Assembly (NCBI GenBank): GCA_964017185.1
Contig: OZ024883.1
Coordinates: forward strand, 44,942,395 to 45,006,394
DNA from: Rugalucina vietnamica
Taxonomy: Eukaryota; Mollusca; Bivalvia; Lucinida; Lucinidae
Length of the DNA: 64,000 bases
Direction of reading: 5' to 3'
Shown: positions 47,601-50,600 of the stretch, in pieces
Numbering within the stretch: position 1 is the stretch's first letter
Layout of the letters: each line of letters starts with the position of its first letter
The notes under the pieces: generated by a model
What the model was told of the DNA's origin: nothing
The model's database searches: none
What the model saw: only the letters and a program-made list of their open reading frames with translations
Program-made: the position numbers and the translations under genes

Positions 47601-50600
47601 ACTCCATCACAAGCTGGAACACAGAAACAACAGAATTATTCTTTTCAAGATAACATCAGGTAGCCATCTCCTGAAAAAACTATTTACTATATTGAGCCGC
47701 ATCGTGACAAAACCGGATTTTTGCCTATGCGAAAACAAAGGCGCAGATCAGCTTCGCGGTAACCGCGAAGCTGATCAGCGCCTTTGTTTTCGCTACACGG
47801 ATAGTACAAATTCTCTTCTTCTTAAATCCGAAATTTCAAGCTTCTAGCCTGCTCCTATGACTGTACAGGTCGGTTTGTGTCAGACCTGGTCGAAAACCCC
47901 GAAGACCGGTTTTCTCACGTCGCGGCTCTATTAAAGGTTACATTCAACACAATGTTCAAGTTATTTGAGTAGACAACAAAGTCTGTTCTGTGGTGACCCC
48001 TTAGATAAGTTCAAGCTGCTGAACCAATCTTCATGGTATTCTGGCTACACCTTTGCAAATATAGATTCAACTTTTCCAACAATCCCTAGGATATCATTCA
48101 CACTTGTACATTATGAGCCGTATTCCGAGAAAACCTGTCTTCGGGGTTTCCAACCAGGTCTGACACAAACCGACCTGTACAGTCACAGAAGCAGGTTAGA
48201 AGCTTGAAATTTCGGATTTAAGAAGAAGAGAAATTGTACTATCTGTGTAGCAAAAACTAGGGTGCTGATAAGCTTCGCAGTTACTGCGAAGCTAATCTGC
48301 GCCTTTGTTTTCTCACGACCCAGCTCATATTTTTTATTCTAGTTGACCATCTTAAATGACTTAAAATGAAAACAAGATAGCCAGTCTATCAATACCTGCA
48401 CATATGCATGTCAAAGTTAAAATACACATACCCAGAGTTGGTCATCTTTTCCAGCAGGACTTTTCTTGATAAATGCTCCATAGTAGGTGGCTATGTTTCT
48501 GTGGTGGGAATACTGTAAATACAAATAACCAAACTCACATGGTGCAATGAATGAGCTGTGTGAGGAGAAGACTGTGTGAATAAAAATGTTAAGAAAAAGC
48601 TGTCATTCATTTCAAGTTTCTGACAATTTGCTGTGTTATGTATGACAGTTACTTGTTGAAAGATGTGCATTCAGTACTGGTAAACTTCCCAAGGGAGTAT
48701 GCCCAGGAAAGTATGATGTTATACATATGATGTTTACTTGTTGTCCTTAGCAATTATTTACTTTTAGTGTCCCAGATATTGGACATAAACAGGTTGTTTA
48801 CTTCAGAATTTTCTAGAAATTTCAAATTGTTCTTTGACGGAAAAGTCCGGAAAAATCTGGAAGAACCAAAGATGTAGAATCTTCTAGAAAATTTTTTTTT
48901 TTATGTCAAAAGAATATTGTGGAATTTTCTGGAAGGATAATGGCCTCTCTAGAATATTCCAAAACATTAAATTTTGGTAAACAACTTGTTATTTTTAGTA
49001 TATGATATCATAGAATTTGCTGGAAGAATCCTGAATGTTCCTCAGTGCTATATAAGGGCTACAAATTTTCATAAGGACAATCTTTGGGTACTGTTACTAT
49101 TAAGAAGTCAAAATCTATCTTACTGGAATTTAAACTTATTCTTGGATTACTTTGTGATATTCGATTCTGGATTGGGACATAGTGCTATTTTGAAACAAAC
49201 TTTAATTCTTGGGATCAGAAACTGATACAGACTTGTGTTAAAAAATTCTGAGGGACATTCAGACATTCTTTAAGGGAATTAACATCTTGAAAGGTATTGT
49301 ACATTCATTTTTGTTTGATTGTATATATGCTTTTGATTGTTTCACATGTAATTACTGGTTAAATCACTTCTAAATAGATTTGTTAAATTTTAAACAAAAA
49401 TTGTTGCTGGCTAACCAACTTGTTGGTTTCCTTAATCTTCTAGTTACGCCTGGCACGTAACAGAATTGGGGGCTCGAGTCCGGGATTGAAATTTTTTGTG
49501 CACCAAATTTATTTAAAATTCTAAAGTATCTTCACTGTTTGCTGTTTAAATAGCTAAAGCCAGCAAAAAGCAACCATGTCATTCAAACTAAGTGACTTTA
49601 TTGCTGCGCCTTCTCAGGAGCTGTTAGATAAGGCCAAAAAGAGTGACCTCTTAGACATAGCTGATCATTATGGGTTGTCAAATATCAAGACTTCCATGTT
49701 AAAACATGAAATTAAGAACATTTTGATTCAGTTTTTTGTTGACGAGGAAATTTTTGATTCCTCGGCTACTTCTCAGATTCTAGTCACTCAGACTGACTTG
49801 CAGTTGAGGGAACTAGAAATCAAAAGACAAATTGAGATGGAAAAACTAAAATTTGAGTATGAAGAAAGAATAAGGTTGGAAACTTTAGAACGGGATGAAA
49901 GAATAAGGGCAGAAAAGGCCGAAAGGGAAGAAAGAATAAGATTGGAAACTTTAGAACGGGAAGAAAGAATGCATAAACAAAAGTTAGAAATGGATAAACA
50001 AAAGTTAGAAATGGAAGAACGAGAGAAGGAAAAACAAAGAGAATTAGAACGAGAAAAAATTGAGTTAGAAAAAGAAAAATTAGAAAGAGAAGAAAGGCTT
50101 GAAATTGAAAAAGAAAAATTTAAATTTGAAATTGAAGAAAAAGAAAGAGAAAGGCAATTTCAGTTACGAATGAAGGAAATTGAACTTAATGACAAATCAA
50201 AATCAAAATCTTTGCCTTTGGCTACTAGTACAGTATTTGATGTCACAAAACACATTCGTCTCGTTCCTCCATTTCAAGAAAAAGAGGTTGACAAATATTT
50301 CTTACATTTTGAGAAGGTGGCAGAAAACTTGAAATGGCCAAGAGAGCACTGGACCTTGCTTTTGCAAAGTGTTGTAATTGGTAAAGCTCGAGAAATTTAC
50401 ACTCAGCTTTCTCTTGAGCAAAGCTCAGATTATGATACAGTAAAGGAATTTATTCTTAAGGCTTATGAGCTGGTCCCTGAGGCATACAGGCAGAAATTTA
50501 GAGACTGTAGAAAAGAACATGACCAGACTCATGTTGAGTTTGCTAGAACAAAAGAGCAACTATTTGATAGATGGTGTTCTTCAAAGAAAGTAGGTTCTGA

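Follow-up and report, generated by a model that had tools for sequence, protein, structure and literature searches.

How LTR elements bring their promoters under heat shock control is well worked out in plants. In the excerpts of the two reports on which we rely, the LTRs of ONSEN (ATCOPIA78) and of heat-responsive Brassicaceae Copia elements carry a four-pentamer (4P) heat shock element (HSE) plus a weaker one (PMC5059998, PMC3907296). ONSEN itself, in Arabidopsis thaliana, has one 4P element (three-pentamer, 3P, in one copy) and one gap element, and its heat response was measured. In plant Copia LTRs, predicted 3P elements are reported to correlate with heat induction of up to 100-fold, and predicted 4P elements with induction of up to 1000-fold (PMC5059998). 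The ONSEN LTR is described as bound by HSFA2, and its activation as severely reduced in an hsfa2 mutant (PMC3907296).

The animal cases, as far as the source excerpts go, are weaker or of a different kind. In Drosophila copia, an LTR element of an animal, the heat response correlates with the presence of heat-shock consensus sequences in the promoter, but the element belongs to Copia, is transcribed without heat and, in the excerpted text, has a promoter without the further nGAAn copies required for high affinity (PMC3907296). Caenorhabditis Helitrons are animal mobile DNA with HSEs bound by HSF-1, the motifs being consistent with tandem overlapping HSEs (PMC6927752); they are, however, DNA transposons, and their HSEs are described as acting on neighbouring genes rather than as an LTR promoter. 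Heat-inducible LTR elements of Caenorhabditis, reportedly held down by nuclear RNAi, come without a named site: the main text of the paper uses neither "HSF-1" nor "heat shock element" (PMC4714518). Among fungi, the Ty3/Gypsy element Tcn3 of Cryptococcus is credited with two putative LTR HSEs and with insertions at 37 but not at 30 degrees, and Tcn12 with one putative HSE (PMC12810828). These cases differ from ours in being fungal and in having sites that are putative and fewer, whereas mobility was measured there.

The locus described here likewise combines a four-pentamer element with weaker ones. It differs from ONSEN in that the retrotransposon is Gypsy-type and Gmr1-like, sits in an animal-type host gene, has six HSE arrays and is known from sequence alone. 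An earlier note on this DNA knew of no heat-driven case in the Gmr1 group, and we found no Gmr1 heat-shock promoter among the matches listed for open-access papers, represented mostly by title and the start of the abstract. The excerpts of PMC8556966, PMC13104882 and PMC8896005 name no such case either. Within the literature covered, heat-responsive LTRs are a known kind; what appears to be new is the lineage, the array density and an hsp-like layout that extends as far as the TATA box.

The retrotransposon and its host gene

The window, meaning the whole 64-kb stretch of DNA that was analysed, contains an LTR retrotransposon with the following parts.

48634-49462, plus strand: 5' LTR, 829 bp, ends TGTTA...TAACA
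49463-49492, plus strand: candidate region for the primer-binding site, next to the 5' LTR on its inner side, by eye
49576-51093, plus strand: Gag ORF, named by its SCAN domain (PF02023, E 3.2e-11)
51119-53722, plus strand: Pol ORF (PF17921, 2.6e-21; PF00665, 6.5e-12; PF00078, 7.2e-19)
53723-56690, no strand assigned: about 3 kb interrupting the reverse transcriptase (RT) frame
56706-57614, plus strand: remainder of RT and RNase H (PF17917, 1.3e-35; PF00078, 4.2e-09)
57750-57761, plus strand: purine tract adjoining the 3' LTR, candidate polypurine tract, by eye
57762-58590, plus strand: 3' LTR, 829 bp, ends TGTTA...TAACA

The Pol ORF encodes integrase zinc-binding and core domains (residues 277-449) followed, in the same ORF, by the start of the reverse transcriptase (RVT_1 from residue 771), which is the Gmr1 order. 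Integrase upstream of reverse transcriptase in a Gypsy-type Pol is described as the mark of the Gmr1 clade (PMC8220671), and the SCAN domain as derived from a Gmr1-like Gag (PMC3424704). Both features attributed to the clade in the excerpts of these papers are present here, so that domain order and SCAN-type Gag together identify the element as a Gmr1-like Gypsy LTR retrotransposon. The earlier note's assignment to Gmr1 is supported on these grounds, as is its description of the element as young: the LTRs are identical at 827 of 829 positions, differing at 48891 (A/T) and 48986 (T/A). The 4-bp flanks, GCTG (48630-48633) and GTTG (58591-58594), differ at one of four bases; the putative target-site duplication is imperfect although the LTRs are near-identical. 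No tRNA genes were found in the 64-kb window. Apart from the two LTRs themselves, a blastn search of the LTR against the window gave no match longer than 37 bp. In viral_contigs, a collection that may omit records from the same genome as the window, an exact 19-base pattern had no matches; a 174-residue integrase piece searched against the same collection, with the same possible omission, gave seven pattern stretches and no confirmed match.

Because of the interruption in its RT frame between 53722 and 56691, this copy is not autonomous; at most it could be transcribed, or moved in trans. The interrupting stretch has no ORF of at least 100 aa. Its CpG observed/expected ratio of 1.14, against 0.37 in gag and 0.35 in pol, suggests an origin different from that of the rest of the element. 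The retrotransposon is flanked by two copies, 85% alike, of an approximately 180-bp repeat (48107-48285 and 61142-61320). A 91-bp piece of this repeat also lies within the interrupting stretch, where 55105-55195 matches 48145-48235 at 89% and is related as well to 61180-61270. We also considered whether low CpG in the LTR parallels ONSEN's lack of CG sites, and rejected it as special: the LTR ratio of 0.25 is unremarkable because the element's ORFs are also low (0.26 in the last) and 64 of 600 sampled 829-bp stretches were as CpG-poor.

The host gene was sought by tblastn with a human TNIK kinase domain query. Eleven of the 12 rows returned are exon-sized minus-strand matches spread between 61871 and 33386, with E values from 2e-21 to 0.005; the twelfth (42380-42457), on the opposite strand with E 0.30, was dropped. 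The exon matches nearest the element are as follows.

48429-48515, minus strand: host kinase exon (tblastn), 119 bp from the 5' LTR edge
61075-61125, minus strand: preceding host kinase exon, on the element's other side (tblastn, E 0.005)
61815-61871, minus strand: host kinase exon further upstream

By eye, the 48429-48515 exon is bordered by acceptor and donor signals. Minus-strand kinase matches on either side of the element indicate a kinase gene, by its matches of the Misshapen/TNIK/MINK/MAP4K4 type, with the element antisense within its intron. As the earlier note stated, the element lies in a signalling-kinase intron, here between the 61075-61125 and 48429-48515 matches.

Other repeats occur nearby. 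The same intron holds a tandem array with a period of about 455 bp (59148-60933), and two further arrays lie beyond exon 61815-61871 (62029-62587, period about 12 bp; 62584-63961, about 156 bp). Elsewhere in the window, 2727-7977 contains ORFs with reverse transcriptase (RVT_1, 5.6e-12), together with a tyrosine-recombinase-like match that narrowly misses the cut-off (PF00589, 1e-05); we take this element to be perhaps DIRS- or Ngaro-like.

Heat shock element arrays between 48806 and the TATA box

In the 5' LTR, GAA/TTC pentamers alternate without mismatch in one run of four (48806-48823), two runs of three (48877-48889 and 48922-48934) and two runs of two (48952-48959 and 49033-49040). The LTR thus contains strong heat shock elements in the sense of at least three contiguous inverted nGAAn pentamers. 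The earlier note had counted one four-, two three- and one two-pentamer run within 156 bp; that count is correct and understates the case, the fifth run at 49033-49040 lying beyond its range. When arrays were called allowing up to two missed letters, so that near-matches were included, six HSE arrays were seen to fill 48806-49040.

48806-48823, plus strand: array A, four perfect pentamers, 12/12 letters
48840-48862, plus strand: array B, five pentamers, 13/15 letters; absent from the earlier note
48877-48894, plus strand: array C, three perfect pentamers and a fourth with one mismatch, 11/12 letters
48912-48934, plus strand: array D, five pentamers, 14/15 letters; includes the second three-pentamer run
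48947-48964, plus strand: array E, weak, two perfect pentamers between two with one mismatch, 10/12 letters by eye; below the 11/12 and 13/15 cut-offs
49013-49040, plus strand: array F, six pentamers, 16/18 letters; outside the earlier note's range
49049-49055, plus strand: TATA box, TATATAA

Array F, the longest, ends 8 bp before the TATA box. The distance of "about 90 bp" previously given from the sites to the TATA box is accurate for the narrower range, 88 bases separating 48960 from TATATAA at 49049. Transcription is expected to start about 30 bp beyond the TATA box. A second TATA-like string, TATATAT, is found at 49322.

All five perfect runs recur in the 3' LTR at the same offsets, from 57934 onward. 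It is therefore true, as was claimed, that the runs are kept in both LTRs, but with only two differing positions this carries almost no weight as evidence: the two LTRs descend from the same template through a single round of reverse transcription, so that their agreement at 2/829 differences is nearly uninformative. Both differences fall outside the GAA/TTC letters, as chance would also lead one to expect. Agreement of the two LTRs in their HSEs is expected with or without selection, and at such an age it is no evidence of selection.

A candidate heat-shock-type promoter and its possible use

We consider it probable that the U3 of this LTR is an HSF-driven promoter of the heat-shock type, working like that of ONSEN. 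The six arrays span about -273 to -39 relative to the predicted start, with the TATA box next, and would recruit trimers of the host heat shock factor. Under heat or protein-folding stress, cooperative HSF binding would drive the element's transcription from the TATA box, HSFA2 playing the equivalent driver role in the ONSEN analogy. RNA started in either LTR would be antisense to the kinase gene, and read-through out of the 3' LTR would pass over the upstream exons 61075-61125 and 61815-61871. HSF binding, heat induction and any effect on the kinase gene are what we infer from this arrangement. Given that the binding site is conserved, we also infer that the plant 3P and 4P classes can be carried over to animal HSF; by that plant Copia classification, one 4P and two 3P elements would predict strong induction.

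HSF also has roles outside heat, in gametogenesis and development. The main rival is accordingly that the sites are used in unstressed germ cells or embryos, so that the element is transcribed where insertions are heritable and heat induction is a side effect or absent. The sequence data fit this and the heat-driven reading alike, and retrotransposons in general need germline expression. Dense three- and four-pentamer arrays beside a TATA box nevertheless have the look of highly inducible heat-shock promoters, and we judge this rival to be unlikely.

Less probable still is that the HSF sites are real and have been rendered inert by silencing of the element, with no transcription even under heat. 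The interrupted RT frame is in keeping with such a fate, and in C. elegans nuclear RNAi is reported normally to block heat activation of some LTR elements (PMC4714518). Two differences in 829 bp suggest, on the other hand, recent activity of the source, and the promoter sequence is undamaged. The evidence comes from one copy, and silencing could keep this LTR off even under heat.

Chance, other factors and the origin of the arrays

An AT-rich LTR rich in GAA/TTC triplets might contain such runs without any function, and the triplets are indeed denser in the LTR (57 per kb) than in the window (43 per kb). The earlier note had proposed a comparison with shuffled LTR sequence, which we carried out on the LTR of this copy with 20,000 shuffles each keeping 2-, 3- or 4-mers (values below are in that order). 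The three runs of at least three pentamers compare with shuffle means of 0.019, 0.039 and 0.077, and were reached by 0, 0 and 1 of the 20,000 shuffles. The total of 14 pentamers in runs was reached by 0, 3 and 26 shuffles. By a weaker measure, five runs of at least two pentamers, the numbers were 23, 157 and 680, the last of these counting in favour of chance. The window outside both LTRs (62,342 bp) has a single run of at least three, with three pentamers, at 47263-47275. Among 200 whole-window 3-mer shuffles, no 156-bp stretch had more than two runs of at least three, and two occurred in one shuffle, against three in the real LTRs. Graded arrays gave the same picture: the LTR has four clusters at 11/12 letters or better and four at 13/15 or better, the window outside the LTRs has none, and four clusters were reached by 0 of 1,500 shuffles in each of four tests, with cut-offs that were chosen after the arrays had been seen. 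These comparisons place the pentamer runs far above chance, and we give the chance explanation hardly any credence. By sequence only, the excess over shuffles and the array layout identify the sites as heat shock elements, as the earlier note had called them.

The effect is also specific to a spacer of 2. In a scan of 32 trinucleotide/reverse-complement pairs with spacers of 0 to 10 (352 combinations), GAA/TTC at spacer 2 ranked first for runs of at least three: it has three and AAA/TTT at spacer 7 has two, although AAA/TTT triplets are more numerous (85 against 47 for GAA/TTC). For runs of at least two, AAA/TTT is ahead, with as many as nine where GAA/TTC has five. Within 48805-49041, GAANNTTC occurs six times, a number that none of 5,000 shuffles attained at either the 2-mer or the 3-mer level, and TTCNNGAA occurs three times, reached by 10 and 169 of 5,000 shuffles, respectively.

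GGAA cores lie within several arrays, which might suggest that the motif serves STAT, NFAT, Rel, ETS or TEAD. We scanned 48805-49041 with patterns for STAT, NFAT, TEAD, ETS, kB, AP-1, GAGA and C/EBP. The STAT, NFAT, kB and AP-1 patterns used are absent from this interval, and TEAD, ETS, GAGA and C/EBP show no clear excess at both shuffle levels; TEAD, for example, occurs once against shuffle means of 0.7 and 1.47. One ETS-type CCGGAA is present, a count reached by 232 of 5,000 2-mer shuffles.

The evidence on the origin of the arrays is mixed. The self-identity of 48800-49060 is highest at lag 71 (0.416; mean 0.288, sd 0.039), and with the arrays masked this lag, at 0.397 of 78 positions, is second among masked lags. 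Arrays A-B aligned to C-D score above all 2,000 mononucleotide shuffles. Together, the lag-71 self-identity and this alignment score make an old duplication of a two-array unit possible. Outside the GAA/TTC letters, however, no more than 15 of 44 positions are shared between A-B and C-D at lag 71, and no more than 15 of 45 at lag 72 (mean non-GAA/TTC identity across lags 0.29, sd 0.09), and the 15-bp array flanks match one another at 0 to 7 of 15. The poor flank match and the low identity outside the motif speak for independent gain or upkeep of the sites. A tandem repeat finder reported only the 10-bp period within arrays A, B and D. The first five arrays (48806-48964) are evenly spaced, with gaps of 16, 14, 17 and 12 bp, and the P of 0.004 for this spacing is post hoc, the boundaries having been chosen by the analyst. 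On the lag-71 evidence, some arrays may have arisen as copies of others and not as separate gains. That the arrays serve another factor, or represent mere old tandem duplication, we regard as very improbable given the pattern scan and the 15/44 identity, in spite of the even spacing and the alignment score, and a duplication would have copied HSEs anyway.

The heat-driven promoter is thus the reading that we favour. A fuller version of it, towards which we are tentative and lean slightly to doubt, is that a Gmr1-like animal Gypsy element has acquired, independently of the plant Copia elements, a full heat-shock promoter denser than that of ONSEN. Such an element would multiply in bursts under heat stress, scatter HSF enhancers through introns and, at this locus, produce heat-induced antisense transcripts across the 5' portion of a GCK-IV kinase gene. 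If the reading is correct, six HSE arrays at the TATA box of a young Gypsy element in an animal would represent convergent evolution of a trick known from plants. HSF-mediated mobilisation of transposons by warming in wild animals would then become directly testable, with one LTR and one factor.
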